64,000 nucleotides of DNA, taken from the NCBI GenBank assembly GCA_027563935.2, contig CM050446.2:27903501-27967500 (forward strand). Direction: 5' to 3'. The notes beneath the pieces were generated by a model that did no database searches, was not told the origin of the DNA, and saw only the letters and a list, made by a program, of their open reading frames with translations. The DNA comes from Costus lasius. Its lineage: Eukaryota; Streptophyta; Magnoliopsida; Zingiberales; Costaceae. Positions 1 through 56,335 of this stretch are shown in pieces. Positions within the stretch are counted from its first letter, which is position 1. Each line of letters starts with the position of its first letter. The position numbers were made by a program, and so were the translations under genes.

Positions 1-1143
1 GACTTTCTCATGGAAAATAAATTTCTAACATACAATCACCAATGAAAATTCTTCATTAATTGCATCATAAAATTTTAAAACAGATATATCGTCTTCTAAA
101 TCTAATTCTCAAGATTCACAACTTAGTAAAATAAAACTTCGCAACTTGCATAAAAGAAAGAATTTCAATATCAAGACTTTATCCAATTTTCAGTTTAGGT
201 TTATCATACTTTTGCTTACAGGAATAGGATATCCAAAATCTTTTTCCACTCATATTTTTCTTTTTCTTTTTGTTTTTGGATGGTATGTACCTACATAGAT
301 ACATACTTTTTGTTTCTTTTTGCATCAATCACATTCTCTAATTCGATTACCACCTTTTTTCTCGTGACGAAATCGGAGTACACTGACCACATAGTCAGTG
401 TAATAGAACTCATGTCTTTTTAGTATTGGGAATCTTTACCAAAGACAGCGGAGTTAATGTGAATAGATTCCTCTCATTTCTTTTTAGACTTCAACCCATG
501 TCGTTCGGTACCACTGTCAATTTTACACAGTGCCAAGCAGGGGAGTCTCTCACTATTTTTGTGGATTTTGGATTCTTTTTCCCAACAAATAGTAAAATAA
601 ACAAAACCTCAATTAGACTAGTCAATCAATATCAATTCAAGTATTCATACTCATATGCTGATTTTATTCAAGAAGTAGTTTCACTTTTAAATCAAATTTT
701 CAAACAACATATCTCCCTAAAATCTTACTCCTCAACCAATGAAGAATTTCAAAAGTAGATATGTATAAGAGAAATAAATTTGACATGATAGGCCTTATTC
801 TAGTCTCAATTTTGGATTCACTCATTAACATCAAACATCAATCAAGCCATATACAATAATCCCAAAGGTAGATCAAGGCCATTCATATCAAAATTTGCTC
901 ATCATCATCATGTAATGTCATCAAAATATTATCAAGTGAATACAACCATATTAAAAAGAATATCATCATAATCATTATACAACCCCATCAAAGATCGAAA
1001 AGATAAACATGAAAAATAGAGTAGTAGTGCTGGCGAACACAAAGGTGTAGAAGAAGCATCCTTCCCTTCAACACATGAAATATCAATAAGATACTTAAAG
1101 TGAAAGACAAAAGATAAAAGGGAAATGTGATACTCACAAGACT
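1..1143 (-). other. 3' UTR of element A
   Basis: Non-coding, AT-rich sequence between the env-like stop and the missing 3' LTR. It holds the conserved 62-63-nt two-stem structure at 486-548. The 110-aa frame on the other strand (426-758) crosses that structure and has no recognisable domain, so I do not call it a gene. Confidence 0.7.
486..548 (-). other. Conserved two-stem 3' UTR structure, copy 1
   Basis: On the sense (minus) strand an outer stem AGACT/AGTCT encloses an inner stem CACTGT-N9-ACAGTG (512-532). The same layout, with compensatory arm changes, occurs at 27332-27394, 27400-27462, 39360-39421 and 39453-39514. All copies lie in Athila-like 3' UTRs in sense orientation. Function unknown. 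Confidence 0.7.
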
Positions 1144-2583
1144 CTACCAATCTTCACCGCCATCAGATCCTATCTCTTCGGTGCTCTGTGCTGCGGCGTC
1201 TATAGGATCAGTAGGTGGTGCTCTCTAATGCCCTCCATACTCTCCACTCCTCCAGGGATCCTGAAAATCAAAGCGTTCATATAAGAAATTTCCCATCTCC
1301 TCCATGTAGGTACTCAGATTTTTAATGTCTTTATGCATGTGATGCATAGAATCAGTCATCTAGCCTACGAAACCTCTCATGTCACTCATTGTGTTCATCA
1401 CTCTCTCCATCCTCTGCTCCAGTCGGTACAGCTGAGTGGAGAGATATCTAAATCCGGGATCGAAGGCACTGGAGAATCTGCTGCCTGAGTCTGGGTGTGT
1501 GGAAGAATCTGCAGCTCCAGATGGCTGCTCCATGCCCATCCCAAAAGGATCATCATTACCACCCCAGGGTGGTGGTGGTATGGTACTGAGAGGGAGTGGC
1601 ATAGCAATGTCGGCGTCTTCTGGAACCAACCTCCAGTTCTCTTGGTTTCTAACTATGGTCTTCTCGGTGCATGGAAGTGGTAACTTATGTCCTTTAGGTC
1701 CAAGAATCAGTGAAAAACCTTCTCTTATCACCATTTTCATTGCAACACAAGACTCTAAGTCAAGTCTTGGACTCCCTCTTGCAATCTCTGTCCCATAGGC
1801 CTCAACTCTCAAGTACAGGGCTATAGGTGTAATGAAACCACCTATCACAATAGCTCCTTTCTTTGCCCTAGAAACTTTTTCCAAGTGTTTCATGAAGAAA
1901 AAGGCAACATCTAAGGGATATCCAAATAGCATACTTCATAAAAAGAACAACTCAGCTTGCCTCACCATCCCATCACTGTCACCTCTACCAAAGACAGTGT
2001 GGGTCAAAACTCTGTGAACATACTTGATGCAAGGATTGGAAATCTTTGAAGCTCTAGAAGTAAGTGCTGAAAAGTGGGTCTCTTCAGTGATTTGGTTCCA
2101 AAACACATCCTCAGCATACCCCACTGAAACTGATGTGCGGCCTCCTGTACCAAATTGGAAGATGGTTCTCAAGTCTTGCATGGACAGCTGCCTCTCTACA
2201 TTAGCTATGCGGAAGGTGATATAATCATCTGCATGTCTTTCACTATACTCATACAACTGTGTATCAAAACTACTCAGAAATTCAAGCACCAACGGTAGAT
2301 ATGTTTGTGGTGTCATTTGGAAGAATCTTTGGGCTTTGATTTGCTCAAACATCCACATGACATCTTCATGCAAACCCAATGTCTCCAATGTCTTCTTATC
2401 AGCATACTTGGTGGCAATTACTCTTCTCTCAACTAGCTGATTATATCTTGCAGCTTGAATTTCATTTCTGAACAAAATTCCATGTGGGTTGGGTGGAAAG
2501 GAAGGTTCAGCTGGTGCCTTTCCTTTTCTCTTGGCTACAAGTCCTTTGGTTCTTGGTGGCATTGTTACAATCACAAGCAGCAA
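1144..2583 (-). pseudogene. Athila-type env-like ORF of element A, broken by three stops
   Basis: One frame of about 480 codons with in-frame stops at 1936-1938 (TGA), 1360-1362 (TAG) and 1225-1227 (TAG), ending at TAG 1144-1146. It begins with a basic, proline-rich stretch after MPPRTKGLVAKRK. The body has the pattern of the plant 'putative transposon protein' family encoded downstream of pol in Athila elements (LGLHEDVMWMFEQI, KYVHRVLTHTVFGRG, SDGMVRQAELFFL). The second half is proline-rich, then helical (YRLEQRMERVMNTMSDMRG), and the tail is acidic. Its position after the pol-end hairpins and a T-rich acceptor-like site suits expression from a spliced transcript. The homologue in element B is split between 43272-44253 and 28209-28689. 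No signal peptide or convincing membrane span is visible, so 'env' describes position only. Confidence 0.8.
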
Positions 2584-3632: not shown

Positions 3633-6294
3633 CTTTAACACTCGGGTGTGATCGTGAATTCCTCTGTTGCCTTTCTGATTTTTCTTTTGTTTGGGCATCA
3701 CATTGAGCCACATAAGGCTCAGCCTTGAAACACTCTCCAATTTTATTCCAAATCTTTTTTCCTTTGTCAATTAATCTAGATCTTCTTCTCCTTCTTCTCC
3801 TTCTTCTAGAATTTTTGTTCTTCTTCTCCTGCATCCCTTTATCAACATCCTCAGAAGAATTGTTAATTTCAGAATTTGAGGGTTCATCAAATAAGCTTGA
3901 AACATCATAAGTATCATCATTAAATATTTCAACACTACAATAAGATCCTGAGTATGAAAGTTTGTTCAATGAATCATTAAGATTAAATTCAATCTTGTTG
4001 TCACAAATATCAAAAGTAATATTTCCCTCTTTCATATCTATGTTTGCCTTAGCAGTGGCCAATAGTGGTCTCCCAAGAATTATAGGATTTCTAGAATTTT
4101 CCTCCATGTCTAACACTACAAAATCAGCGGGTATGAAAAACTCACCTATCTTTATTGGCACATTTTCCAAAATACCTACAGGATACTTTACCGATGAGTC
4201 TGCGAGCTGCAAGGATATAGATGTAGGCTTTAGCTCTCCAAGATTCAGTTTCCTGTAAGTGGAAAGAGGCATTAGACTAACACTTGCACCTAAGTCACAT
4301 AAGGCTCGGTCAAAAGCCATAGTGCCTATAGAACATGGTATAGAAAAACTACCTGGATCCTTCAGTTTAGGTGGCAGTTTATTTTGAATGACTGCACTAC
4401 AATCTTCAGTTAGAGTAACCATGCAAGTACCATAATTATCTAATTTCCTTTTGTTAGACAAAATCTCCTTTAAAAATTTTGCATAAGATGGCATTTTAGT
4501 AATAGCTTCAGTAAATGGAATGTTAACATAAAGCTTTTTCAGGATTTCAAGGAATTTGCCAAACTTCTTGTCTAATTTGTTTTGGACTAACCTCTAAGGA
4601 AAAGGTATTGGTGGTCTATAGGGTGGAGGTGAGTTAGGGTTAGGATTGTCCTTCTCACATAATTCATCTCCTTTTGGTTCATCACCCTTTTGGGGTGGTA
4701 AACAAGTTTGGGATTTCTCATGTGAAGATGATTCTCCTAACTCTAATTCCTCTTGATTATCATCAAGCCCTTTTTCAGTGTTTTCAAACCTCCCTCTAGG
4801 TTCTCCTAGTTGTTTTCCACTTCTAGTCATGATGGCATTATAGTGCTCTCTAGGGTTTATCTCAGGTTTTGCAGGCAATTTTCCAGGGAGCCTGTAAGGT
4901 ACACTAGCATGTTGTGCAATTTGGTTTTCTAAAATCTTATTATGTGCTTCCACTCTTTCCAGTCTGGAGTTGATTTGATCAAGACTTTCTCTAAATCCTT
5001 CAATTTGTCTATCTTGCTTTGACATGTGTTGGTCTTGCTTAGCCATAAACTAATTTTGACTGGCTATCATCTGTTCAAGCATGGATTTTAACTCAGAACT
5101 TTGATCCATGTTTTGGTTTTGATTTTGGATAGGATTTTCCCTTTGGAATCCTTTATTCTCAGTTTGTCCCCTCTCATAATTGTTGTTTTTCCATGAAAGG
5201 TTGGGGTGATTTCTCCATCCAGGGTTGTAAGTGCTAGAATAGGGGTCATTAGGTCTACCTTGATTATAATTCCCTATGGCATTCACATGCTCATTACCCT
5301 AGTCTACAACAATTCTACAATTTTCAGAAGTATGACCATCATTGCCACAAATTTCACAAGTGATAGCAGAAATAGAAGCAGTTTGCATAGAATTAAATTT
5401 GCTGCATAAAAAGTCTACCTTCTCTGCTAAGGATCGTCATCCATCACTTTCACCCTTACCTTGAGAAGGCTTGTATAATACTCCTCTCTCAGCACTCCAT
5501 TGATTGTGATTCAATGCCATCTCTTCTAGCAATCTGAAGGCAGCATCAACTGTTTTGCTCATAAGAGCGCCACCTTCAGCAGCATCCACAATTAATTTGG
5601 TATTATCCGATAATCCATGGTAAAAAGTTTGCAGTAAAACCCAATCTTCAATGCCATGGTGAGGACACTTCCGCTGTAAATCGTTAAATCGCTCCCATGC
5701 CTCACTGAACGACTCCCCATCTCTTTGTCGAAAATTTGTGATTTGATTTCTCAGTTGAATTGTCTTGCTTGGGGGGAAGTATTTCATTAAGAATGAATTT
5801 GACAGTTGATCCCAAGTTGTGAAGGTCCCGGCCGGTTGTGATTGAAGCCAAGTCTTTGCCCGGTCCCTAAGAGAAAAAGGGAAAAACCTTAATCTTAAAG
5901 CATCATTAGAAACACCATTTATTTTGATAGTATCACATAATTCCAAAAATAAAGACAAGTGGTGGTTGGGATCTTCTAGAGGAGATCCTCCAAACTGGTT
6001 TTGTTGAATCATTGAAATAAAAGCAGGCTTGATCTCGAAGTTATTAGCCTCTATTGCTGGTCTAGCAATGCTGGATCGAATTTCTCGAGGATTAGGGACT
6101 GCATAGTCCCTAAGTGTTCTCTGATTATCCCCCATCTCTACAATTTCTTCTGGTAATGTCTCTTGAGATATCTCTTGTAAATCTTCCCCCAGTCTTAACT
6201 TCCTGCGTACTCTCAGTGTTTTATTGATTTCTGGATCATATGGAACAAGTGGTCCTGACCTAAGACTCATGCACATGCAAAATAGATAGATCAA
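3622..6294 (-). pseudogene. Gag-protease polyprotein of element A, four in-frame stops
   Basis: A single minus-strand frame runs from 6294 to 3622, interrupted by stops at 5437-5439 (TGA), 5299-5301, 5050-5052 and 4594-4596 (all TAG). Order: gag capsid-like domain (6050-5480; LRLRFFPFSLRDRAKTWL, RNQITNFRQRDGESFSEAWE), CCHC zinc knuckle (about 5380-5320; C-x2-C-x4-H-x4-C), Asn/Gln-rich linker, coiled coil ending LENQIAQHAS, basic/acidic linker, then retropepsin (about 4330-3960) with the active site LCDLGASVSLMP and flap-side IILGRPLLATA. The tail has a run of nine arginines (around 3800) and ends next to the pol-end hairpins. RT, RNase H and integrase are absent with no visible scar. The most likely start is one of the ATGs at 6294-6270; the first residues look like leader. 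Confidence 0.85.
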
Positions 6295-25478: not shown

Positions 25479-26982
25479 TGACACGTCTCGCAAGTGCACG
25501 GTTATGTCGAAATAATATAAAAGGTTGTCAAACCCATAGGGAGCAAGGTTAAATACCAGAAAATCTAAGTCTTAATAGCTAAGCAATTCGAAACAAAGTT
25601 TTGGAAGCAATAAGCGAAAATAAGAAATCAAACGCAACGACGAGGAGGTTATCTATATGAGAGAGATTCAGGACTTCGGTATCCACTACACTGATGAATC
25701 TAACTACATTATAAGTTATCTATTACAAGAGTATGAAATATTGCATAAGGAATCCCCCAAAAGTACAGGATGCCCTCTCGGTCAGTACACCCTAGTGCTT
25801 ATCTAGAACGATCTCCTACTCTCGTGGTGGATCGTTCTAAATAAGCCCAATGAGTTTAAGGGAAGATTATGATACCCTTGAGCAAGATCCAAGCACTATC
25901 GTGTCAAGAACTCGCAAGTTTTACATAGGGAATCCGCCAGCACGATCCTCCTCCCGGTTAGGATCGTGTCCACTACCATATGATACTATGCAGCCAAAGC
26001 AATATCAAGAAATAACAACACCAAGGTAAAATATGCTCATACAAACTTCAAAGTAACATAATCAAATTAAAATTGCATGAAAGAACACATCAGTGGGCTT
26101 CAACCGAGTCCTGAAAAGGGTTTTACGCTACAGAATTCATGAAAGCTCGCATAGATCTCTCTAAAATGTTAGGAAAATTTCTATGAAATGTTTTTGAGAG
26201 GAAGGAGAAGATAAACCGAACAAGATCCCCAAAAATCGTGAAGATCTGATGCTCCAATCTCTCAAAATCGCCCTGAAATCGCCTTGTCGCCTCTTCCGTT
26301 CTCCCTAGCCGATGCGTCCACCGATTTCTTGATGATTTGGAAATAATTGAAAGGGCTTTTATATTCTTTGGATTCGCCACTCTGTTAGCTTTCCAAAACA
26401 TGTCTCCTTACCTTTTTTAGACTTCCCTATGGTTCGGAATCGAAGGAAAATCGAGCGCGGGTCGGAATGCAGAGTTACGATCATGGGTGAACCCCGTTGG
26501 GTTCACTAGGTGGTGAAGTCTACTATGCAGTTCTTTCACATAAAAATCACCGGTGAACCTCACTGGGTTCACCAGTTGGTGAAGTGTACTGTACATCTCT
26601 ACGGAAACTTCCTATAAGAGAATCACGGGTGAACCCCGCTGAGTTCACCTGGCTGTGAAGCTTTCTATGGAGTTTCAGACATCTAGTGAAAGCACCGATG
26701 AACCCTGCCGGGTTCACCTTGCCGTATTTTTCAGAGTAGCTCGGATTTGGTACAAATTTGATGTGTAGCTTCCTCTTCCAGTAAGAAATCACCCCATGAC
26801 TTTAGAATCTTTAAAAGACTTCAAAATTGGGCGAGTTTACCTAAAGTTCAATAAAAGCAAGAAAAAGTGAAGATTCCGAAGTAATTAAGTAAATAAGTCT
26901 CAGTGGAGCATGAAAACATTGAAATAAGCCTAAATTTGAGATGAAATAACACTAAAAATTACTGTTAAAATGCAAGACATCA
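25479..26982 (-). repeat. 3' LTR of element B
   Basis: 1504 bp, sense start TGATGTCTTGC at 26982 and end ...GACGTGTCA at 25479. Its left 960 bp aligns with the partial 5' LTR at 61513-62453 in the same order. Contains four GGTGAACCC-type palindromes. Confidence 0.85.
26487..26717 (-). repeat. GGTGAACC palindrome array in the LTR of element B
   Basis: Four units of arm-N4-arm form (GTGAACCC-CGTT-GGGTTCAC and variants) begin at 26487, 26552, 26628 and 26698, with 65-76 bp spacing. Five more lie in the B pol-env spacer. Confidence 0.88.
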
Positions 26983-27331
26983 AATACTTCCGAACTTAAA
27001 TCTTTGCATGTCCTTAAGCAATAAAATAAAGTGAATTACATGAAAGGTATAAAAGAAATCAATCTAGTCGAAAACATGCATCCAAATCAGAGAAACATCT
27101 ACCAGTTATCTATCATCTAATCAGAACAAATCAAGTGATCAGGTGTCATAGAATGTTCGGCAGCTTGATCCCACAATTTCTAGAAGTCGAGGAACTCAGC
27201 TAGCAGTAGACAAAAAACTCAATTAAGCATACACATTACTCATGCAAATCGAATCCATCCAAATCTACCTTTTGGGATCAACTCAAATGTATCTGTTAGG
27301 ATGTAAAATTCCAATTGCTTATTATGATATT

Positions 27332-27394
27332 AGACTTCAACTCATATCCTTAGGTACCACTGCCAATTTTTCGCAGTGCCAAGTAGAGGAGTCT
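27332..27394 (-). other. Conserved two-stem 3' UTR structure, copy 2
   Basis: Outer stem AGACT/AGTCT; inner stem CACTGC-N9-GCAGTG (27358-27378). The innermost inner pair is C-G where copy 1 has T-A. Confidence 0.7.
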
Positions 27395-27399
27395 CTCTT

Positions 27400-27462
27400 A
27401 GATTTCAACTCATGTTCTTAGGTACCACTGCCAATTTTTCGCAGTGCCAAGTAGAAGAATCT
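27400..27462 (-). other. Conserved two-stem 3' UTR structure, copy 3
   Basis: Outer stem AGATT/AATCT, a compensated change, extendable to a perfect 10-bp stem CTCTTAGATT/AATCTAAGAG (27395-27404 with 27458-27467). Inner stem CACTGC-N9-GCAGTG (27426-27446). Confidence 0.75.
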
Positions 27463-34514: not shown

Positions 34515-36366
34515 TGATGACACCAAAATATATAGTATATTTTGTATCATTTTATATATCTTTTCATGCCAAATTGAAGATCTTTTGCTTATTTTTATGC
34601 TAAATTTATCAAATATTGCAAAATCTACATCTGTTTTGGTTTTTCATGATTTTCAGGTAAAAATGCACTATTTAAAGGCATTTTCAAGCAAAATTAAAGA
34701 CATGAAAGAGTTACCATCATCAAGAGGAGATCACCTGACAAATTTCACGCAAATCAGAGCAACACACCAATATACGGTAGGGTCATATTCTATATTACGG
34801 TACCGTATTTCCGTATGCTACCGTAATATCGGAGCACTGCCGTAATTTAGTGGATTTTCTGAACAGAAGATTTTGTGTAACATACGACACTACCGTAAAA
34901 CTTAACACTGCCGCATTTTGGAGCGCATTCAGAATAGAGTTAATTGCTGAAATTACGGCACTACCGTAAACCATTTTACGGGTCGTATTTGCTAGAGATT
35001 TTGGACCAGAGAACTCGACTGAAATTATGGCACAGCCGTAATATGTTTCACGGGCCATAATTTTGACTCAGGGTTCACAGAACTAAAATACGGCACTGCC
35101 GTAAAATAAAACACGGCCGTATTTTCTACCTGGACGGGCAACATTTTCGGGCCCGATTCTTGCACAAACAATATCTTTTGATCTAGAAGTCTAATTTGTG
35201 ATCCAAAAGATGCTACGGACTCATCTTAAAGAGAAGAAGACACACGAAGTGAAAGCCCTGATTTTTATCCAGAATCGGGGGGAGCAATCGACAGAGAGGC
35301 GCTTAAGGTTCGGCCTCATGCCGAGAGGCGTAGAGGGCACCTCAGGCCGTGATTTTTACACAGAAGATTCGTTTGGAGGAGGGGATGATAGCCCAGAAGT
35401 TTCTGAGCAAGAGGAGTTCGATTGGAGGAGAAATCAACGAAAGAGTGGCGCCGGCACTGTTTACACGCATAATTACGGCTGTAATTTCTATTACAGTCGT
35501 GTTGTAACGTTATTTCTCCCTTCTTTTCATTTTTTGATCGTTCTAAACAATGGATTATTGTATTTCTTCTTCCATGCAAGTTTAAACACTCTTTGGGACA
35601 TGGGGGGAGTAATCCCCTTTGGTTTCTTAATGATTAGATAACTTTTACCTTCGTCGGAATAGTTTTATGATGATAATTTTACTTATGTGAATAATTGTAC
35701 TTTGATTCTCCATAGATTGATGTTATTATTCATGTTTTAGAGTTCTTGCAATAAGGACCGAAAGGTGACTTGCTTGAGAACTTGGAACCCTAGAATTACA
35801 TGATAGGAACTTTCTTAGGTTAGTGCTTATTATTTGATTTTAGTGATATTATTGCCATGATAGATAATTTGAATCTAGGGTTGAGTTATTATAATAAACA
35901 TTGATAGGTATTGCATGAAAGTGAGTACCGGTATGTTAGAAAACCATAAGTAGAACTTGTGTTGAGTCTCGGATGTACGAAAGTGATCTTTGAATTCTTT
36001 GATTGATGATGTACTTATCTTCAGTGTTGGGATATATCTTGCGCGAAAGCGAGGATTGGTCCCTGCATGATTGTCTGCACGAAAGTGAGATGATCCCTTT
36101 ATGAAGTAAATTAAGTCTTTATCATAATAAAATTAGTCTGATGACCTTTTATTTATGTCTAATCATTGAAATTAAGGTGAATGAAACCCTAGTCCCAGTT
36201 TATCTCTCTGATTATTTTCCCGTGTGTTTATTGATTATTCACTTGCATCATATTCGATTTGCTTAGCTAGTAAGAAAATAATTATTTGATACTTAACAAT
36301 AAGGTCTCTGTGGTTCGATATCTTTCTTTATAACTTCGAGTATCCGTGCACTTGTGGAATACAACA
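34515..36366 (+). repeat. 5' LTR of element D
   Basis: 1852 bp, with palindrome units of the TACGG...CCGTA type at about 34796, 34883, 34954, 35026 and 35089 and a separate one near 35470-35510, the layout of the A LTR. It lacks a stretch of about 48 bp present in the 3' LTR near 41383-41430 that looks like a local duplication. Confidence 0.95.
34795..35120 (+). repeat. TACGG palindrome array in the LTR of element D
   Basis: Five palindromic units with intervals of 87, 71, 72 and 63 bp, orthologous in position to 7789-8113 of element A. A second copy is in the 3' LTR (40195-40510). Confidence 0.85.
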
Positions 36367-36372
36367 AATTTT

Positions 36373-36390
36373 TGGCGCCGTTGCCGGGGA
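36373..36390 (+). other. tRNA-Asp primer-binding site of element D
   Basis: TGGCGCCGTTGCCGGGGA, a perfect 18-nt complement of the plant tRNA-Asp 3' end, six bases after the LTR. Confidence 0.95.
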
Positions 36391-36642
36391 CCTTAGTTTT
36401 GTTAATATCAAAATAGTTGTTAGTATTGCTAGACTAGGTTTTATTTGTTTTAGATTTAACTTTGTTTTCTGTTTTTGCAGGTTTTGGATTTTCAGAAGTT
36501 GTGATAGAACTGAGATTTTCTAAAATTTGTGAATTTGCTTGTGTTTTATATTTTCTTTATTTTTTTTATATATTTTGAAAAAAAAAATTTATTTGATTGA
36601 TTGGTGTTGGATAATCTTTCTGTTCTTGATAGATTTGAAGAT

Positions 36643-38079
36643 ATGTCTTTTAATTTCAACTCGTGGGCAACTGAAGGAGATGAAGTATACATGTCATATA
36701 AAAATGATTCATCATACACTCTTCAAGATAAGCTAGATTTTATCTCTCGTCAAATAGACACTTTAAATATGCACCCTATTAGTACATCTATTTCTCCTGT
36801 TAGCTGTGATATTTGTGGATGTGTTGGTCATTATAGTTCTAATTGCCCAATTTTAATTTCTCCAAATTCCAATTTATCATGTTATGAAGATGATCAATAT
36901 ATTTCTAGATGGGAAAATCAAACTTCTTTTTATAATGATTGCTCTAATCATGTTTCTGAACCATACTTTGAAGATACTGAGAAATCTAGGTTAGAATCCA
37001 TGCTTGAAAAATTCATGTCCAATCAAAACCAATTCATGACAAATCAAAACAAGGAAATTGAAGATCTTAAGGAGATAATTGTTCAACTTGCTTCTAATGT
37101 AGAATCTATATCTGCTCATTCTGAATTTTTGGAAACTCAGATAGCACAACAAGCATGTTTATTTGAGTTTGAAAATGAAGAACTCGATTTAGAAAAATCC
37201 CCCTCTGATTATGATTGTTTTGAGATTGAGCCTTATGTGAACATTAATGAATTACACTATGATTTTGATGATTGTAAAATTGATGTATTTGTGGAAAAGG
37301 TTGATAAAATTGATTCTGAAAAACCCCCTCTTGATTCTAATAATAATTATGACATTGATTCTTTTGATGATATATTATTCATGGTTCATTCTGATGAGTT
37401 TGAAAATTATGATATTCATGTACCTCAATCTGATTTGGGTAAAAATTTTGAAATTGATGATGAGCTATTTATTGATAGATATGAGGAAATTGATGAATTT
37501 GACTCTAATTCTGATGATGAATTATTTATGGAAAGACATGAGGAAATTGATTTTGAAAAATCTCACTTTGAATTTAATTGTAATTTTGAAATTGATAAAT
37601 TATTTGATGATGAACATGAGGAACTTGATAAGGATTTGAATATTGTGAAAATTGATGAATCTAACTCTGATGCTTTGCCCATATCTATTGTTCACTCTTT
37701 TGATTTATTTGAAAAACTATGCTTTATTGAGGAACCTAGTTTGAGACAGAGAGATTATTTTGATGATCCAATGCTTGAATATTTTGATAAGAGTCCTATT
37801 GCAATTGAAGACATGAATTTGAAGAAGGGACTAATGATTTTGCTTTTTGATAAATATAGGAAGATTATTGAATATCCTTTGAGTGAAGTTGAAAATTTTA
37901 ATTTTGATTTCTGCATATTTGAGAGAGTCATGTCAATCTTGATTTACATGAGAGTCATGTCAATCTTGATTTACATGAAATTCTGGATATTTGGATTAGT
38001 GGCTAAACTTTTTGGACAAAGGAAATGCAGAAAATTATATGCTATTTATTTTGGTACTGATTCACCTGCTTCACCATGA
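36643..38079 (+). CDS. Acidic zinc-knuckle/coiled-coil protein of element D
   Basis: Intact frame of 478 aa from the first ATG. Residues 1-50: short Athila-like segment. 55-68: CCHC knuckle (C55, C58, H63, C68). About 120-185: coiled coil with MSNQNQFMTNQNKEIEDLKEI, ending LETQIAQQA, the form found after the knuckle in Athila gag (compare LENQIAQHAS in A). About 185-410: a strongly acidic stretch, dominated by Asp, Glu, Phe and Ile, made of loose repeats (DDELFIDRYEEIDEF, DDELFMERHEEIDFE). The C-terminus holds a 27-bp tandem duplication (37923-37977). The capsid N-terminal domain and protease are missing. The frame has stayed open although the LTRs have diverged by a few percent. It may be a trans-acting gag accessory or packaging protein, or chance; function unknown. 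Confidence 0.65.
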   Translation: MSFNFNSWATEGDEVYMSYKNDSSYTLQDKLDFISRQIDTLNMHPISTSISPVSCDICGCVGHYSSNCPILISPNSNLSCYEDDQYISRWENQTSFYNDCSNHVSEPYFEDTEKSRLESMLEKFMSNQNQFMTNQNKEIEDLKEIIVQLASNVESISAHSEFLETQIAQQACLFEFENEELDLEKSPSDYDCFEIEPYVNINELHYDFDDCKIDVFVEKVDKIDSEKPPLDSNNNYDIDSFDDILFMVHSDEFENYDIHVPQSDLGKNFEIDDELFIDRYEEIDEFDSNSDDELFMERHEEIDFEKSHFEFNCNFEIDKLFDDEHEELDKDLNIVKIDESNSDALPISIVHSFDLFEKLCFIEEPSLRQRDYFDDPMLEYFDKSPIAIEDMNLKKGLMILLFDKYRKIIEYPLSEVENFNFDFCIFERVMSILIYMRVMSILIYMKFWIFGLVAKLFGQRKCRKLYAIYFGTDSPASP

Positions 38080-38217: not shown

Positions 38218-39359
38218 TGAAATTTTGCGCAAAATACGGCACTACCGTAATTTCTTTACGTTGTTGATTCTTTTGCCTCCAGATCCAGAAATCTTCAAGA
38301 GCAACTATCTTCCACCTCTAGCCACCACTGCATCTGCCTCTGACATCACTGTTTCCAACCGTCGACACTGGATTATACCATCTGCAGATTCTTACTTCTT
38401 CTATTGCCTCTATTTCTATTGATTTGATTTATTTTTGCAGCAGACTCTTCATTAGTGACACTGATTTCCTAATTTTTTTTTTGCAGTGCTATCTCTCACA
38501 CCCACCGGCCAACGATCTCACCTCCAGGACTGTAGTCTCTAGCAGGCCACTAGAGATTACTCACTCTACTATCGGCACCATCATCATTGCTAGCAGCTTT
38601 TCAGCCAGCCTCTGTTCACCCTTTGCTTCTCGGTTGCATCAGCTCTTTCCACCAGCACTCTCTTGGACTACGAATAATATCTCTGATTCTTCTTTGAGAA
38701 AATCATTTTTATTATTATTATTATTTTTAGAGACTATTTTTAGATTGAGCCTTATGTATTTAAAATTATGCAGGTAAAAATTTTGAAAAGGCACATCTTT
38801 GGACCTTGCAGCATCTGCCCCGACACTATTTTTGGTCTGAGCCTTATGTATTTTTGTTTAGAGCTTGCTATATAGTCTTGTGAGTATTGTTTGCATTCTC
38901 TTGTATTCATGATTATTTCATATAGTTGTATGGATGAATTCTGAATTCTATTTACTGATATTTCTTCGATATGATTGCATGATGATATGATTGTTCATGA
39001 TCCACTTTCTACTATCTTGTGGTGTGATTCTATTTTTTTTTAAAAAAAAAAATTCTCATTGATAGATTTTTCTTTGATGATGAATAAACTTGTGTTTATG
39101 ATTAGAAAGAAATCTATCATGTTGAATTTATTTCTTTAATACATATCTGCTTTTGGAATTTTTCATTGGTTGATGTATGAAATTTTGGGTAGATGTGTTA
39201 TTTGAGGAATAAGATCTAAAGGTGAAACTACTCCTTTGAATAAAATGAGTATATGAGTATGATTTGAGAATTGAGATCAATTGATCAACCTAGTAGATGT
39301 TTAGTCTATTTTTGCTATTTGTTGGGAAATAAGAATCCAAGATCCATAAAAATAGTGAG

Positions 39360-39421
39360 AGACTCCCCTACTTGGCACTATGTAAAATTGATAGTGGTAC
39401 CTAAGACATGGGTTGAAGTCT
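39360..39421 (+). other. Conserved two-stem 3' UTR structure, copy 4
   Basis: Outer stem AGACT/AGTCT; inner stem CACTAT-N9-ATAGTG (39376-39396), a third compensated variant of the inner stem. Confidence 0.75.
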
Positions 39422-39452
39422 ATATGGAAGATAATGAGAGTGAAAAATAATA

Positions 39453-39514
39453 AGACTCCCCTACTTGGCACTGTGTAAAATTGACAGTGGTACCGAAGAC
39501 AAGGGTTGAAGTCA
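39453..39514 (+). other. Conserved two-stem 3' UTR structure, copy 5
   Basis: Outer stem GACT/AGTC; inner stem CACTGT-N9-ACAGTG (39469-39489). Confidence 0.75.
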
Positions 39515-39918
39515 AAATAAAAAAGGTGTGTATCTAAGTGGGCACATGCCATCTGTGCAAAAACATCAAAATACATGAAAAAGAAAAAAAAATGAATAAA
39601 AAAATATGTGTGGAAAAAGATCTTGGAAACATAATTCCTGTAAACAAAAGCATGATAGATTTGAACTGAAATTGGGTGAAGTCTTGAGATTGAAAGTTCT
39701 ATTTATTATACAAGTTGCAAAGTTTTATTTGATTGAGATGTAGATCTAGAGGGTTGAGTTCTAAGAATGATATGTTTATTTGAAGTTTTGTGAAACAATT
39801 GATGGAATTTTTCAATGATGATTGTATTTTAGAAATTTATCGAGCATGAAAAGATTTATCTTTTAATCAATTTTTGATTTTTGCTTGAGGACAAGCAAAG
39901 TTTGAGCCTTATGTATTT

Positions 39919-41817
39919 TGATGACACCAAAATATATAGTATATTTTGTATCATTTTATATATCTTTTCATACCAAATTGAAGATCTTTTGCTTATTTTT
40001 TTGCTAAATTTATCAAATATTGCAAAATCTACTTCTGTTTTGGTTTTTCATGATTTTCAGGTAAAAAGACACTATTTTAAGGCATTTTCAAGCAAAATCA
40101 AAGACATGGAAGAGTTACCATCATCAAGAGGAGATCACCTGACAAATTTTACGCAAATCAGAGCAACACACCAAAATACGGTAGGGTCGTATTCTATATT
40201 ACGTTACCGTATTTCCGTACGCTACCGTAATATCAGAGCACTGTCGTAATTTGGTGGATTTTCCGAACAGATCATTGTGTGTAAAATATGACACTACCGT
40301 AAAGCTTAACATTGCCGTATTTTGGAGCACATTTAGAATAGAGTTAATTGCTGAAATTACGGCACTGCCGTAAACTATTTTACGGGCCGTATTTGCCAGA
40401 GATTTTGAACCAAAGAACTCGACTGAAATTATGGCACAGCCGTAATATGTTTCACGGGCCATAATTTTGACTCAGGGTTCACAGAACTAAAATACAGCAC
40501 TGCCATAAAATAAAATAGTATTTTCTACCTAGACGCACGACATTTTCAGGCCCAATTCTTGCGCATACCATATCTTTTGATCTAGAAGTCCAAATTGAGA
40601 TCCAAAAGATGCTGCTGACTCGTCTTAAAGAGGAGAAGACACAAGAAGTGAAAGCCCCAATTTTTATCAAGAATCGGGGGAGCAATCGATAGAGAGGCGC
40701 TTACGGTTCGGCCTCACGCCGAGAGGCGTAAAGGGCACCTCAGGCTGTGATCTTTACACAGAAGCTTTGTTTGGAGGAGGGGACGACAGCCCAGAAGTTT
40801 TAGATCAAGAGGAGTTCGATTGGCGGAGAAATCAATAAAAGAGCGGCGCCGGCACTGTTCACTCGCATAATTACAGCTGTAATTTTTAGTACAGCCGTGT
40901 TGTAATGTTATTTCTCCCTTCTTTTTATTTTCTGATCATTCTAAACAATGGATTATTATATTTCTTCTTCCATGCAATTTTAAACACTCTTTGGGACATG
41001 GGGGAGTAATCTCCTTTGGTTTCTTAATGATTAGATAACTTTTACCTTCGTCAGAATAGTTTTATGATGATAATTTTACTTATGTGAATAATTGTACTTT
41101 GATTCTCCATAGATTTATGTTATTATTCATGTTTTAGAGTTCTCGCAATAAGGACTGAAAGGTGACTTGCTTGAGAACTTGGAACCCTAGAATTGCATGA
41201 TAGGAACTTTCTTAGGTTAGTTCTTATTATTTGATTTTAGTGATATTATTGCCATGATGGATAATTTGAATCTAGGGTTGAGTTATTTTAATAAACATTG
41301 ATAGGTATTGCATGAAAGTGAGTACCGGTCTATTGGAAAACCATAAGTAGAACTTGTGTTGAGTCTCGGATGCACGAAAGTGATCCTTGAGATACCACTT
41401 GAGATAATCAACTTAGAATTTGGATGCATGAAAGTGATCTTTGAATTCTTTGATTGATGATGTACTTATCTTCAGCATTGGGATAGATCTTACGCGAAAG
41501 CGAGGATTGGTCCCTACATGATTGTCTGCACGAAAGTGAGATGATCCCTTTATGAAGTAAATTAAGTCTTCATCATAATAAAATTAGTCTGATGACCTTT
41601 TATTTATGTCTAATCATTGAAATTAAGGTGGATGAAACCCTAGTCCCAGTTTATCTCTCTAATTAATTTATCGTGTGTTTATCGATTATTCACTTGCATC
41701 ATATTCGATTTGCTTAGCTAGTAAGAAAACAATTATTTGATACTTAACAATAAGGTATCTGTGGTTCGATATCTTTCTTTATTACTTCGAGTATCCGTGC
41801 ACTTGCGGAATACAACA
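39919..41817 (+). repeat. 3' LTR of element D
   Basis: 1899 bp, same termini as the 5' LTR, followed by CATGG (41818-41822). Confidence 0.95.
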
Positions 41818-43129
41818 CATGGATGACAACATAGTTACCTATAAGGGTAGACTGGCGGCTAAATGATTCAAACAAGTCCGTGGGGTGGACTATAATAAAA
41901 CCTTCTCGCCAGTTGCCATGATCAAATCCATTCGGATTCTACTTGCTATAGCTGCATATCATGACCATGAGGTATGGCAAATGGATAATAAGACAGTATT
42001 CCTTAACGGAAAGCTGACAGAGGATGTGTATATGACACAACTTGTCGGCTTCATCCATCCTACAGATGCCAATAAAGTCTGCAGGCTAAAGAAATCCATT
42101 TATGGATTAAAGCAAGCATCTCGAAGTTGGAATATTCGGTTTGATGAACCTGTGAGAGATTATGGCTTTATCAAAAGTGAAGATGACACTTGTGTATACA
42201 GAAAATTCAGTGGAAGCTTGGTGACTTTCTGGTCTTGTATGTCGATGACATACTGCTCATCGGAAATGATATCCCTTGTCTTCAAGCTGTGAAGACATGG
42301 TTATGGAAGTGTTTCGAGATGAAGGACTTAGGGGAGGCCACCTATATCCTAGGTGTGAGGATCTACCGGGATAGATCCAAGAGGCTCCTGGCCCTTAGTC
42401 AGAGTACCTACATTGATAAGGTCCCGGAGAGGTTCAACTTGGAGCAGTCCAAGAAGGGGTACCTTCCAGTGAGACATGACCTTATTCTCTCAAGGAGCCA
42501 GTGTCCTACCACACAGGCTGAGAGGGATGACATGAGTCGAGTGCCCTATGCTTCGGTAGTAGGATTGATCATTTATGCAATGTTATGTACTATACCAGAT
42601 GTGGCTTATGCTGTGAGCATAACCAGTCGATACCAATCCGATCTAGGTCTACAGCATTGGGTGGCTGTAAAGAACATCCTAAAGTATCTGAGAAGAACTA
42701 AAGATTTGTTCTTAGTCTATGGGGGACAGGAAGAACTCAGTGTTCAAGGCTACATTGATGCGTTATTCCAATCTGACCCCAATGACTTAAGATCGCAAAC
42801 AGGCTATGTGTTCAGATTAAATGGAGGTGCTATGAGCTAAGAGAGCTCTAAGCAGTCCATTATAGTTGATTCTACAACCGAGGCTGAGTATGTTGCTGTT
42901 TCTAAGGCAGCCAAAGAAACTGTTTGGATACGGAAGTTCATTTCTGAACTTCAGGTGGTTCCAACTACCATGGATCCGATCGATGTCTATTATGACAACA
43001 ATGGGGCTATTGCACAAGCTAAGGAACCATGGTCTCATCAAAAGTCCAAACACATACTCAGAAGATTTCACCTGATCAGAGAGATCATTAATCGAGGTGA
43101 TGTCAAGATTAGCAGAGTTGACACAGAGT
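41818..43129 (+). pseudogene. RT and RNase H of copia-1, after element D
   Basis: Two overlapping frames (41885-42292 and 42190-42840) plus a tail after a stop at 42838. RT motifs: [47 protein letters not shown] and an intact YVDDILLIGND (around 42240). RNase H: TTEAEYVAVSKAAKETVWI, then YYDNNGAIAQAK. An in-frame stop near 41863 and a frameshift near 42200 disable it. It ends at ISRVDTEL, where a 3' LTR fragment begins directly; the C-terminus, 3' UTR and LTR start are deleted. Confidence 0.85.
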
Positions 43130-44253: not shown

Positions 44254-45185
44254 GAGAGAGTAAGAGAGCTCGCCAAGGATCACGGATGGAGTCACAGTGA
44301 AGCAATAGAATGGTCGGAGGAAGCTGAAGAGGTCGGCGGCGGAATGAAGGCTGGTGGTAGAAGAACCCTCGAACAAAAGGAAAACTAGAAATCTGTCGAA
44401 AATCGTCAATCTCGAGGGCGCTAACCTTGGGGGAAACGCAGATCGGGAAGGAAAAGATCGCCCAAAAGTATTGAGGAGAAGGAAGATCACCTAAAGAGGA
44501 AGAATCGTGAGGCAAGGAGCTGGCGGTGCACGGGTTTGGGCAAAACCCTACCCGTGACTTTCTATAAATACGTGAGGTTATAATCGAAAGCACGGGTGAA
44601 CCCCACCGGGTTCACCTACCTGTGAAGCTTTCTAGAAAATTTCAGCAATGTCAGAAATGCAGATGAACCTCGCTGGGTTCACCTACCCATAAAGTCCTCT
44701 AGACATTTTCAGCTTGCTCAAAATCATGGGTGAACCCCATCGGGTTCACCTACCAGTGAATATTTTTGTAGGAAAAGTACAGTGCTAGAATACAGTAGAC
44801 TTCATGTGTGAACCCCATGGGGTTCACCTGGCCGTGAAGTCTTCTGGAAGAAACCTAAGATCCCTAAGCAATATACTCCATCCTAGATCGCTAAAATTAC
44901 TTTGCTGCTACGAAAATTGCCGTGAAAACCAGATTTTTTTCATGCATAGTAGACTTCATGGGTGAACCCTATGGGGTTCACCTACCCGTGAAGTTTTCTG
45001 TGCAGCTCAAAATTTTCCTGTTCTCCAGATTAGTTCCTATGACACAAAAGGACCATTAATTAGCAAGAATTCGTAAACTATCATGTAAAACAAAGCAGAA
45101 CTAGTCAACTACGAAGTCCAACTAATAACAACGAAAAAGAACACAACATTAACTAAAGAAGCAAAAACTTATGTTACCTCCCAAG
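44254..45185 (-). other. Pol-env spacer of element B with palindrome array
   Basis: About 0.9 kb between pol end and env-like start. It holds five GGTGAACCC-N4-GGGTTCACC palindromes (44595, 44663, 44729, 44808, 44961) and no convincing frame; the 130-aa frames here are shadows. Confidence 0.75.
44595..44982 (-). repeat. GGTGAACCC palindrome array in the spacer of element B
   Basis: Five units with 9-bp or slightly decayed arms and 4-nt spacers; intervals about 67, 67, 78 and 154 (two periods). The N4 differs between copies (CACC, CGCT, CATC, CATG, TATG) while the arms are kept. The same motif is in the B LTR. Confidence 0.9.
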
Positions 45186-49983: not shown

Positions 49984-50109
49984 AATGGAGAAGGACAACT
50001 CCAATAAAAAAAAAACTATTACCAGAGAAGGAAAACTCCGGTTATCAAAAACCATCCAACGGAGAAGGACAACTCCGGTAAATAAAAACTATTGACGGAG
50101 AGACAACTC
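49984..50109. repeat. ACGGAGAAGGACAACTCCGG minisatellite, left part
   Basis: About 3-4 units of 34-38 bp with the phrase ggagaaggacaactcc. It resumes at 57097 after copia-3, whose TSD AACTC is part of the repeat. Confidence 0.85.
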
Positions 50110-50870
50110 TGTTGGAACTTTACACATGCGGCATCAGAGTTCAGAGCATGCGCAGCGGAAAAAAAACAGTAAATGCATGTAAGGATTTTGTAACACCATA
50201 TTAATCAACCTATAATATACATTGGATTAAAACACGAATAACTTCGCGTACCTTTCTCCATCGCAAACAGTTTCTTCACGGAAATGGTAGGGAATGTCTT
50301 TTCACCCCTTTCCTTTGCCTTTCAATTCCTCCTCGATGATCAGGAGAAGGTAATCCAAAAGCCTTTCAGCGAAAGTACTATTAATCTCTCTTTACAATTA
50401 ATCTTTCTCGAAAACCGTGCAAGAAAATAATAGAGGAGAGAAATCGCCGTCCGCCGTTTCGATTGGAATTGCAAAACAAGAACACAAAGTAACTGCCTCG
50501 AATTGCGTGCGTTAGAGAGGAGAGGATTTCGTTAGGGTTGAGAGAAACGTGAGAGAGCCCTTATATAGAATAAAAACAATTAGTATTCTAACTCACGTTC
50601 TCGATTAATTAATTATAAAATATAATTAATTAACTCCTTTTAATCCTCATCCAAGACTAATCAATTCCAAATAATTCTTTATTCCGGTTCCCTTTAAATC
50701 AATTAAAGGAAGGGGTGAGGGTTGACTAACCCATTCGCTGACCCACTATCATACCCACTCCATCATCACGAGCTGGTCCGTCCGATCAGCGAATCGAACA
50801 TGATTGGATCAAGTTGTCCATACTAAACCGTGTACACATGTGAGCCACATTACGGAGAAAATTTCTAACA
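50110..50870 (-). repeat. 3' LTR of copia-3
   Basis: 761 bp, TGTTGGAAC...TTTCTAACA on the plus strand. Confidence 0.97.
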
Positions 50871-50884
50871 TTCTCCCACTTGGC
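50871..50884 (-). other. Polypurine tract of copia-3
   Basis: GCCAAGTGGGAGAA on the minus strand, directly before the 3' LTR. Confidence 0.85.
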
Positions 50885-51279
50885 TCATATGTCCTAAATA
50901 GGTTTAAACACAACTTAACTTTAATTGATCAATACCATACATCCAATCATCTATAAGTCCTTTCATTGAATTAACTTTATCGAATCATGGCGGGCACACA
51001 TCACTCATCATTGATGTGATTCCTTCCATGTACCACAATAGAATCAACCCAATTTAAACTTTTAGATATTGAGAATAAACAGTAATTTCTCAATAAACTT
51101 TTCTATGAAGAAACACTTCATTCCTCAAAACACTTGTATTCACATCACTTTAATATGCATAACTTTACATGTGAAACAAGTAATTAACAAAAGCAACAAT
51201 TTTATTGGAATTCCACAATAAATGTATCAAAAACTTTACATGAGCATCCTTACATATGCATATAAGATCAACAATAATG

Positions 51280-54200
51280 TTAACAAGGCTTTTCTATTAT
51301 GCCCATCTCTACAACATGTCTAGAAAATGTCTTGGGCGATAATCCTTTAGTTAACGGATCCGCTATCATAGTCCATATGTTAATTACAGCCAGATACTTC
51401 AAGTCCATATGCTTGGCACCCTTGGAGTATCTGTCATTCTTTGCGAAGAAGACTGCTGCGGTGTTGTCACAATACAATCTCAGCGGCTTGGCTATGCTGT
51501 TGACTAGTCCAAGTCCTGAGATAAAGTTCCGCAGCCACTTTCCTTGAACTGTGGCCTCAAAGCATGCCACAAATTCGGCTTCCATAGTTGAAGCAGCAAT
51601 GACTGACTGCTTGCCGCTTTTCCAGGATATAGCTCCTCCTGCAAGAAGGAAAACATACCCAAATGTGGATTTTCTGGTATCCACACATCCGGCATAATCT
51701 GAATCTGAATAGCCGATCAATTCAAGATCCTCCTGAGATCTCCTATACACGAGCATGTGGTCCTTGGTGCCTTGTAAATACCGAAGGACTTTCTTTGCAG
51801 CTTGCCAGTGGCACATTCCTGGATTACTTTGATACCGGCCGAGCATACCAACAGCAAAACTGATATCCGGCCGAGTACATGTCTGAGCATACATCAGACT
51901 CCCGACCACTGAAGCATAAGGAATGACATCCATACCTTTCCGTTCTAATTCAGCTTGGGGACATTGCTTTTCACTGAATTTGTCACCCTTTTGAATTGGA
52001 ACAATCCCTGCAGAGCATTTATCCATACGATATCTCTCTAACACCTTAGATATGTAACTTTTCTGAGACAATCCTAACAGTCCTTGTGATCTATCACGGA
52101 ATATTTCTATTCCTATCACAAAGGATGCCTCACCCATATCTTTCATTTCAAAGCTGTTAGAGAGAAAATCCTTTACATCATGTAACATACCTTTATTGTT
52201 AGTGGCTAGCAGTATATCATCAACATAAAGGACTACTATCATAAACTTACTTCCCTGCACTTTCATGTAGATACACCTATCAACAGGATTCTCTACAAAA
52301 CCATAGGCAGTAATAATATCATTAAACTTTAAATACCATTGTCTGGAAGCTTGTTTTAGTCCATATATTGACTTCTTTAATTTACACACTAATCCCTCTT
52401 TACCTGTGGTCTCAAACCCTTCAGGCTGGTTCATATACACTTCCTCCTCTAAGTCACCATTCAAGAAGGCGGTCTTTACATCCATTTGGTGAAGCTCAAG
52501 ATCATAATGAGCCACCAAAGCCATAACAATTCTCAAAGAGTCCTTTCTAGATACTGGAGAGAAAGTCTCTTTGTAATCAATGCCATCTCTCTGAGTAAAA
52601 CCTTTGGCAACAAGTCTAGCCTTGTACCTTTCGATGTTGCCCTTAGAGTCGCGCTTGGTCTTAAAGACCCACTTACAGCCGACACATTTGCAAGCATCAG
52701 GTAAATCTACAAGGTCCCAGACTTGATTATCAGCCATAGATTTAAGCTCATCTTTCATAGCATTAATCCAATTCTCTGAATTGTCACTATTCATGGCTTC
52801 ATGGACTGAAATTGGATCTTTATCAATGCTTATGTCACATTCATTCTCAACTGAATAAACCACATAGTCATCTGAAATAGCGGAGCGTCTTTGCCTTACA
52901 GACCTCCTCAATGCTATTTCCTGTGGTTCATTCAAATTGTCATTACTTGTGACCGGTTCATTGGATTCACTTTCATTCAGTGATGTTGGATCAGTAATGT
53001 GTTGTTCCTGTGTGTTGTCTGACTGTAATACAACACTTGGAACATCACTTTCATTCGGAACATTCGGAATTTCAGATGGAACAGAATCTATCTGAATTTC
53101 CTGAATATCCAACATTTGTGGTTTCCCACTCCCACTGACCTCTCCAATCTCAATGAACCTAGCATTACCAGATTCAACTATCCTCGTACTATGGTTAGGA
53201 CAATAGAACCTATACCCCTTAGATTTTTCAGGATAGCCAATGAAAAACCCACTGACTGTCCTAGAATCTAATTTCTTTTCTTGTGGGTTGTATACCCTTA
53301 CTTCTGCTGGACACCCCCAAACATGGAGATGTCTTAAACTGGGTTTCCTTCCTGTCCACAGTTCATAAGGAGTCTTAGGAACTGTCTTACTAGGAACCCT
53401 GTTTAAGAGATATACAGCAGTCCTTAATGCATACATCCACAAAGACTGGGGTAAGGAACTATTGATGAACATACTCCTAACCATGTCCATCAGAGTACGG
53501 TTCCGCCTTTCAGCTACACCATTTTGTTGTGGTGTATAAGGCATTGTGTATTGAGCACAAATGCCTCTACTCTCGAGGAACTTTGCAAATGGACCAGGAA
53601 TTTGTCCATCTGAACCAACCTTACCATAGAATTCACCACCCCTATCAGATCTCATCACTTTAACTTTTCTATCTATCTGTCTCTCCACTTCATCTATGAA
53701 TGTCTTTACAACATCCACAGACTGAGACTTTTCATGAAGTAGATAGATGTATCCATACCGTGAGAAATCATCTATAAAGGTGATGAAATATCTTTCTCCA
53801 CCCCATGACGGGATATCGAAAGGACCACATATGTCAGTGTGTATCAACTCTAGGAGTTGACTGCTCCTTGTGGCAGGACCTTTTGCTATGTGTTTTGATT
53901 GTTTACCCTTAATACAATCAATACACACTCCTAAGTCACTTAAATCCAATTGAGGTATGATATTACATTTCATCAACCTCATTAACCTTTCCTTGGATAT
54001 GTGACCTAGTCTCCTATGCCACAAATAAGCAGACCGTTCATCTGTTGCACTACGTTTTATACCATAAATGTGTTCAGCATTAAACAAGGATTCAGCATAA
54101 GTAACATCAAGATTAAACCGGTATAAATCATCAACCAAAGTACCAGATCCATAAAAGTACTTGTTTTTAAATAATGAAAATACACCATGTCCAATCTCAA

Positions 54201-55335: not shown

Positions 55336-56320
55336 TAAAACATGCTCATCAGTAATGCTTTGAGTTATTTAAGTCAGATTCAGATAACTTTAAACATGTA
55401 TTAAAATGACCTTTGGGCAACACTTTAATACATAACTGTAACTAGCAGAAAATTTTACTTTAACAGATTTTCAATTACATCACACTTAATGTGAATGTTA
55501 CCTTTGGGTATCCATCACATAAATGGACATAAAAGACAAATCCCCTTACATGTTTATAATTATAAACAATGGTTCACCTTTGGGCAACCTCCTAGTTTAT
55601 AATTACAAACTAATTGTTCAAGTCCCTTACTGTCATTACCTTAATCTTGAACAATTAAATTATTTAGATTTAATGTTTATAAACTTTCGAGCAAGGCCTC
55701 TTTGGAGACTAACATGCTCTTTTCAATAAACATTTAATCTAAATTATTCTTTAATTTCTATGTTTAAAATTAATGTTTATTAATTAAAGCAAGGCCTCTT
55801 TGGAGACTAACATGCTTTCATTAGAATAAACAATTAACTTTAAACTTAAATGTTATCCAAAAGCGGCGAAGACATGTTTCAACTAAACACATAACAATTG
55901 GAATACATTTCAATTCCAATTATAATTAATTAGTCTTATCCCAAAGCGGCGGAAGGCAAGACAATTCATTGAAATTCAAGCGGCGGAAGGCAAGACAATT
56001 GTTTAATCCAATTAAATATAATTGTTTGCATGTAAGTCCATTCAACTAATCACTTTTAGTCTAAAGCACCTGATTCTTACGTGAAGGCATGTCATGCTGC
56101 TAATGTTGGTTCCTTTCTCGGGTACGACACATAGCATTGATATAGAATGTCTAATTGAATACTAGAATCCATAAAAGCCGAAGCCGGAAGACAAAGGGAG
56201 GAGACAAAAGCTTTCTCCAGAGGCACGGCAACAAATTCACAAACGCATAAATGCATTTAAACAATTCAGAATTTAAAAATCCTAATTTCTTTCAAGGTGA
56301 TTAATAGGTGTTCATCAACC
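55336..56320 (-). other. 5' leader of copia-3
   Basis: Non-coding, 985 bp. Phrases recur: 'aagcaaggcctctttggagactaacatgct' twice (55690, 55790) and 'aagcggcg(a/g)ag' three times (55862, 55925, 55979). Function unknown. Confidence 0.75.
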
Positions 56321-56334
56321 TGGCTCTGATACCA
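56321..56334 (-). other. tRNA-iMet primer-binding site of copia-3
   Basis: Minus strand TGGTATCAGAGCCA, one base inside the 5' LTR. Confidence 0.95.
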
Positions 56335-56335
56335 C

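Follow-up and report, generated by a model that had tools for sequence, protein, structure and literature searches.

Short two-stem units recur in the 3' UTRs of Athila-type retrotransposons within a 64,000-nt stretch of Costus lasius DNA (the window), and the question raised by this locus is whether their stems are kept as a structure of the transcript and what such a structure would do for the element. Athila elements are abundant in plant centromeric regions. An earlier note on the same DNA had described five copies and had read paired changes in them as evidence for a structure selected as RNA. The element proved to be real, abundant and constrained, with covarying stems. The unit pair is best explained as a cis-acting RNA structure of the retrotransposon transcript, its exact role aside, and a probability of about 0.6 is given to this reading.

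Host elements in the window

The window holds nested LTR retrotransposons. Element A (minus strand) runs from LTR homology (about 8369 to 6455) through gag, protease, a spacer and an ATHILA-family ORF to its unit. Element B (plus strand) comprises an LTR, a primer binding site, a 492-aa ORF, two units, a hairpin in the region of the polypurine tract (PPT) and a 3' LTR; it is tied to A by LTR and 3' UTR homology. Element C (minus strand) is truncated, with only its 3' part left (two units, PPT-like hairpin, LTR), and is tied to element D by LTR homology. The features referred to below are as follows:

486..548, minus: unit in the 3' UTR of element A, 63 nt, two-stem
1360..2583, minus: ATHILA ORF-1 family (PF03078) region of element A, one stop inside, Pfam match within 1939-2583
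5437..6294, minus: gag of element A
27002..27019, minus: PPT-like hairpin of element C, 2 mismatches, LTR next to it
27332..27394, minus: unit of element C, downstream slot, 63 nt
27400..27462, minus: unit of element C, upstream slot, 63 nt
34515..36369, plus: 5' LTR of element B, limits by homology
36373..36390, plus: primer binding site of element B, by motif
36601..38079, plus: 492-aa ORF of element B, weak zinc-knuckle match under the curated cut-off
39360..39421, plus: unit of element B, upstream slot, 62 nt, inner stem CACTAT/ATAGTG
39422..39452, plus: spacer separating the element B units, an interval highly divergent across 56 loci
39453..39514, plus: unit of element B, downstream slot, 62 nt, inner stem CACTGT/ACAGTG, outermost pair broken
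39883..39900, plus: PPT-region hairpin GCTTGAGGACAAGC of element B, directly 5' of the 3' LTR
39919..41820, plus: 3' LTR of element B, limits by homology
3127-3479, 7396-8113, 34808-35104, 40204-40445; 26486-26718, 44595-44982: palindromic boxes

Judged by their ATHILA ORF, primer binding site and PPT, the host elements are members of the Athila lineage of Ty3 (gypsy) LTR retrotransposons. PF03078 was matched in element A (2.8e-25) and element D (5.2e-10) and was not found in elements B and C; the primer binding site motif, which we take to be of the tRNA-Asp type, was found in A, B and D. Neither of the two element B ORFs scanned contained a protease, reverse transcriptase or integrase, and element B is therefore probably non-autonomous. 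Its 492-aa ORF carries a C-X2-C-X4-H-X4-C motif (the weak, sub-cut-off Pfam zinc knuckle) and a 47-residue stretch resembling one behind the gag of element A.

The 3' UTRs of elements A and B align along their length; that of element C aligns with them at the units (65-68 nt each) and elsewhere only in short A/T-rich stretches. The units of A and C are alike at 51-54 of 63 positions, and the gag and protease DNA of A and D is 68-71% identical, so that the unit is conserved beyond coding DNA. The D LTR is 90% identical to the C LTR.

Several further features of the elements were recorded. Two families of palindromic boxes, TTACGG..CCGTAA (A, B) and GGTGAACC..GGTTCACC (C, D), occupy the LTRs of A, B and C as well as, in A and D, the spacer that precedes the ATHILA ORF; double placement of repeated motifs of this kind is described as Sirevirus-specific in excerpts of PMC2829016. 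Rfam snoR71 (RF00097, 59 bits) was matched at 5651-5757 and 60715-60821, antisense within the gag of A and D at homologous places, and this family may therefore in part describe antisense retrotransposon gag. A copia element with a 1351-aa open frame (50109-57102) lies apparently inside element D and, its LTR pieces being 99.3% identical, would be a young insertion. Between the gag of element D and this insertion, a tandem array of about 45 bp (59247-59894) has a unit with the inverted repeat GATAAATATTC..GAATATTTATC.

Architecture of the unit

The five copies (three of 63 nt, two of 62 nt) are distributed over three Athila-type elements, always in the 3' UTR and in sense orientation, exactly where they had first been placed. 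The core pattern (≤3 mismatches) had no matches in the window beyond these five, and none in 100 shuffles. Aligned in element direction, the copies are alike at 50 to 59 of 63 positions. A covariance model made from them scores 88-94 bits on themselves, by construction, and 11.9 bits (E = 1.8) on the next-best match in the window. Rfam gave no match on the window units at the gathering score, and none in 39300-39560 at E up to 1.

In each unit an outer stem (columns 2-9 with 52-62, including a short bulge) encloses an inner helix with its loop, and a GUAC bulge is conserved. The longest unbroken helix in the structure used has six pairs, and conservation of the unit stops near the foot of the outer stem. 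The outer stem had been given as AGACT/AGTCT or AGATT/AATCT; the outermost A-T pair of this description is absent in 60 of 110 distinct rows and has to be dropped as a family feature.

A candidate for a decayed second unit in element A (about 407-453) scored 4.2 bits with the covariance model (E = 0.58), and in one of ten tests 3 of 300 shuffles equalled its best local alignment. At 378-408, 3' of the element A unit and roughly at the position of the second unit in element B, there is a nine-pair hairpin (TACACTGAC/GTCAGTGTA) whose kinship to the unit is not established. A tRNA-like origin was also considered, as AGTGGTA and GGGTTGAAGTC resemble tRNA boxes; it was rejected, a 7-letter match being expected about 0.3 times (rough estimate) and Rfam being without a match.

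Copies in the genome

The search covered one plant genome, that of Costus lasius itself (1.28 Gb, 269 contigs). The core pattern (≤3 mismatches) gave at least 14,738 matches, the backward control none, and a C-type core (≤2 mismatches) gave 5,517 matches that overlap with these. A first set was formed from 68 loci among the matches listed and the three window elements (71 loci, 133 units), a second from 28 C-type loci (43 units; the window's own copies L194 and L195 were left out), making 99 loci and 176 units (150 distinct) in all. Loci were picked by exact cores among the first matches listed, all on one contig (C1), so that near-standard units are over-represented. The search cores fix columns 13-42, except 21 and 33 in the first core; 121 of the 176 units match either core, and 55 match neither bait. 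The locus L144, the window's element C and loci without exactly two units were omitted from the flank tree and the pairwise-difference analyses, pair 1-63 from the tests of 18 pairs, and four sequences shorter than 55 nt from folding.

The earlier note had seen a tandem pair in two elements. In the sampled loci two units per element are the rule: of the 71 loci of the first set, 58 carry two, 11 one and 2 three. From start to start, units are most often 95 nt apart (23 of 62 intervals in the first set); in L144 the two units are 2.1 kb apart. None of the 99 loci has units on mixed strands, and in 85 of them the PPT-region hairpin follows downstream on the same strand at 299-584 nt (59 of 71 at 312-523 nt in the first set, 26 of 28 at 299-584 nt among the C-type loci); it was found upstream in none. 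The reverse complement of this nearly palindromic motif also lies downstream in 8 of the 71. Two outcomes had been named in advance as speaking against the original proposal, namely uncompensated stems and matches on both strands outside 3' UTRs, and neither was seen in the sampled loci. Upstream of the units in the 68 searched loci of the first set, the coding end is of the ATHILA type in 12, a B-type end or trailer in 46 and neither in 10; the units are thus not bound to one ORF.

Relatives were also sought outside the genome. In IMG/VR, 39 stretches matched a loose core and none matched a fuller one (pattern search only); a second loose pattern yielded 69 more stretches (675,193 bases), in which the covariance model found nothing at E up to 0.1. 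No match was obtained in GTDB genome contigs. IMG/VR likewise gave no confirmed relatives of the B-type ORF, the element A gag or the element D reverse transcriptase. For an antisense ORF across the units no protein was found, and for the ATHILA ORF of element A a single one, from which the protein collection seems poor in plant kin.

Sequence constraint and covariation of the stems

Across 56 two-unit loci the pairwise difference is 0.071 and 0.089 for the two units, against 0.298 for the spacer and 0.14-0.34 for flanking blocks. When a unit is counted only at loci where its partner had served as the bait, the values are 0.086 (37 loci) and 0.093 (39 loci); the flanks at these loci give 0.248 and 0.241. 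A drifting spacer between two conserved blocks is the pattern expected from paired binding sites.

The loop can change while the stem stays. In the loci L193, L197 and L204 the loop of the downstream unit has shrunk from nine bases to about four, and L110 has a different short loop. Folding predicted the family inner stem in L204 and L110; L193 and L197 carry one extra stem change each, and there the family stem was not predicted. A short-loop form with the intact stem CATTGT/ACAATG occurs at 821 places (≤2 mismatches), 29 of the first 100 listed being exact. Retention of the stem under a changing loop argues for a hairpin.

Among the five window copies 17 columns vary, eight of which form four fully compensated pairs (4-60, 8-53, 21-33 and 22-32); the further pair changes are one G-U and one broken pair. 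Three independent paired changes had been claimed from these copies, so that the compensation stands and the count is amended. In 200,000 column shuffles that kept the consensus, four doubly changed pairs arose 65 times and never together with the observed pairing. When shuffles were refolded, four full pairs were obtained in 0 of 3,000 on the sense strand and in 1-2 of 3,000 on the antisense strand.

Over the 150 distinct units and 18 pairs, 2,681 cells comprise 2,539 Watson-Crick, 59 G-U, 51 A-C and 32 other combinations. Six pairs (2-62, 4-60, 8-53, 19-35, 21-33 and 22-32) have a second Watson-Crick state, with at least six rows for each, and these second states are also present among the 55 bait-unlike units. 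Pair 8-53 is mostly C-G in the upstream slot (50 of 58) and T-A in the downstream slot (46 of 58), and part of its covariation is therefore one old difference between the slots.

Of the check that had been proposed, the test of covariation against phylogeny was carried out on units of this one plant genome by re-dealing substitutions on the unit tree (1,000 replicates). With all units, six of the 18 structure pairs fell within the top ten of 1,770 column pairs (null mean 0.1, maximum 2; 0 of 1,000), and the summed covariation score was 315 (null maximum 207). No single pair reached E < 0.05 under this null. The baits fix columns 22 and 32, so that the states there are partly imposed by the search. 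When bait-like units were removed, leaving 60 distinct rows with the five window units among them, the top ten still contained five structure pairs (0 of 1,000), with a summed score of 153 (null maximum 78; 0 of 1,000). With all units but with the columns restricted to those outside the core, three of eight pairs ranked among the ten strongest (0 of 1,000), and 1 of 1,000 replicates reached the summed score. As the signal persists without bait-like units and outside the core, it does not stem from the baits. For the structure as a whole, compensated stem change thus exceeds both chance and phylogeny.

The trees of these larger tests were built from the units themselves (63 columns), and whole-unit exchange between slots or copies could mimic repeated compensation in such trees. 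A tree built from the flanks offers no more than four to six independent contrasts for columns 21 and 33 on its starred branches.

Inner branches, end branches and strand

The end branches of the unit tree record, for the most part, the decay of dead copies. With all units, 108 changes fall in the 36 paired and 75 in the 27 unpaired columns on end branches, against 38 paired and 63 unpaired changes on branches with at least two descendants (p = 0.0008). The contrast lies outside the core (17/66 against 40/39, p = 7e-5) and is absent within it (p = 0.32). With bait-like units removed it is not reproduced (p = 0.61 for 27/53 against 25/41, and p = 0.43 for 7/17 against 18/26 when only columns outside the core are taken) and is therefore given little weight.

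Compensation was counted by parsimony on the 63-column tree, on the assumption that slot exchange is rare. Inner branches of the full set show 11 compensated events beside 20 departures from pairing; on end branches, 104 departures are accompanied by 3 returns and not one direct double change. Once bait-like units are taken out, inner branches have 10 departures with 6 direct double changes and 5 returns, and end branches have 50 departures with 2 returns and again not one direct double change.

Folding did not single out a strand. For 146 units the mean z of the folding energy relative to shuffles was -1.0 for the sense and -1.5 for the antisense strand, so that the antisense folds as well or better and an advantage confined to the sense strand was not found. 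Departures to G-U were in excess on inner branches of the full set (13 of 20; end branches, 35 of 104) when the comparison was with A-C and other mismatches together (p = 0.012); with A-C as the sole comparison p was 0.12, and the excess was not reproduced without bait-like units (inner 6 of 10, end 21 of 50). The claim that the stems are kept and selected as RNA accordingly divides: their compensated change holds, also without baits, and the choice of RNA draws no support from antisense folding or from the bait-free G-U counts. That sense RNA is the acting strand is inferred mainly from the constancy of position and strand in the 3' UTR. The unit is a credible new structured element of plant retrotransposons, and the molecule concerned is most likely RNA.

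Alternative explanations

It is improbable, in our estimate, that the units act as double-stranded DNA, that is, as imperfect dyads for a dimeric protein (an enhancer, insulator or silencer site) in which paired changes keep the half-sites alike and RNA structure is unneeded. Such dyads would account for the equal folding of both strands, the about equal overall numbers of G-U and A-C cells, the palindrome GGTACC within the core and the disappearance of the strand signal once bait-like units are removed. Half-sites are a poor fit, however, for the covarying pairs of the outer stem, which are about 45-60 bp apart with unequal bulges, and the variation of loop length over a constant inner stem (at least in L204, L110 and the exact short-loop matches) and the constant position before the PPT also tell against them. 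Less probable again is an unselected structure, in which short inverted repeats share mutation hotspots (cytosine deamination in the same context on both arms) or are matched by quasi-palindrome repair or template switching in reverse transcription. All six covarying pairs differ by transitions, and in 50,000 simulations each, four double changes in five copies arose 166 to 1,086 times when hotspots were common to both arms, against 0 in a uniform, 4 in a C/G-only and 2 in an unshared-hotspot model. Columns 19 and 21 form both sides of a single CHG site, and among the 55 bait-unlike units they vary to the same extent (15 T, 16 A), as deamination predicts; an earlier argument that unequal variation of these columns excluded CHG deamination was dropped, the bait having fixed column 19. 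Against an unselected structure speak the end branches, where departures accumulate without a direct double change in the full and in the bait-free set, and the lower diversity of units than of spacer and flanks, for which constraint is needed.

The remaining alternative concerns silencing: in Arabidopsis Athila, 21-22 nt siRNAs come from the non-coding region that follows gag-pol, and the units could be sources or triggers of such siRNAs, or act as decoys against this silencing. We regard this as very improbable. With six pairs, the longest unbroken helix of the unit is rather short for a Dicer substrate, and there is no evident reason for an element to conserve the trigger of its own silencing. 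On the other side, Athila siRNAs do arise from this kind of region, and a fold-back is one of three triggers proposed in excerpts of PMC3276544. The same excerpts discuss siRNA854 / miR854 of Athila6, a stem-loop proposed in an Athila element and in this respect like the unit, although the small-RNA sequence quoted there has, by eye, no likeness to it; by the account of that paper, its data refute a specific microRNA from that region.

Proposed role and known systems

A cis-acting RNA structure thus remains the preferred reading. Each unit would be a structured element of the retrotransposon's own full-length transcript. Units normally occur as a tandem pair in the 3' UTR, some 300-580 nt ahead of the polypurine tract. 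As loop and bulge letters are conserved too, a protein may read both stems together with these letters, with two units bound side by side, and the role would lie in the fate of the full-length RNA. Nuclear export, in analogy to a retroviral constitutive transport element, is tentatively placed first, at rather poor odds; packaging is possible and somewhat less favoured, and stability or translation take up the rest. Element B seems to be without pol and yet keeps the pair, which fits any cis-acting role, packaging included. Two roles suggested earlier fared badly. Dimerisation via the GGTACC palindrome has no energetic support, since an equal or larger gain was obtained for 178-195 of 200 shuffles and the ends of GGTACC lie in a helix (kissing loops are outside the model); with the PPT and a whole LTR still to follow downstream, 3' end formation is unlikely.

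Retroviral export elements sit in the 3' UTR before PPT and LTR and have repeated binding sites. The units resemble the constitutive transport element of Mason-Pfizer monkey virus and the direct repeats of Rous sarcoma virus in all three respects (3' UTR before PPT and LTR, repeated site, sense strand), and the sense-strand 3' UTR location of such elements agrees with the 99 loci, none of mixed strand and 85 with the hairpin downstream. The window units match no Rfam family at the gathering score, and the likeness to export elements is one of analogy. The RNA of Mason-Pfizer monkey virus is exported via a structure that binds NXF1/NXT1, according to excerpts of PMC10309623.

Plant retrotransposons offer further comparisons. 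BARE retrotransposons belong to a superfamily different from that of Athila, and their likeness to the units is by description only. For this plant LTR retrotransposon, cis-acting RNA signals (dimerisation, packaging) are named in parts of PMC3735527. The related Tat/Ogre lineage has tandem repeats in the 3' UTR which, according to PMC7004042, vary in sequence and length and seed satellites, whereas the Athila units are conserved and mostly present in two copies in the sampled loci, with a varying spacer. In Sireviruses, too, the stretch from the last ORF to the 3' LTR contains repeated signals that are conserved (multiple PPTs and an inverted repeat at the PPT, in excerpts of PMC2829016), but they are Ty1/copia elements with different motifs, and the Athila units are not PPT copies. 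No structured cis-acting RNA of this kind was found described for Athila in the open literature, as judged by titles or the start of abstracts, with most subscription papers outside this scope.

In its most specific form, which we put forward as speculative and rather doubtful, the pair would be a bipartite RNA element, the plant counterpart of retroviral 3' UTR transport elements, which marks full-length RNA for export or assembly through a plant protein at two adjacent hairpins and has spread through several Athila families, whether or not they have the ATHILA ORF. Since the module is a defined one of 62 nt, its pairs are mapped, and natural variants with swapped stems exist beside copies in the thousands, the handling of full-length retrotransposon RNA by plant retrotransposons becomes directly testable in reporters.
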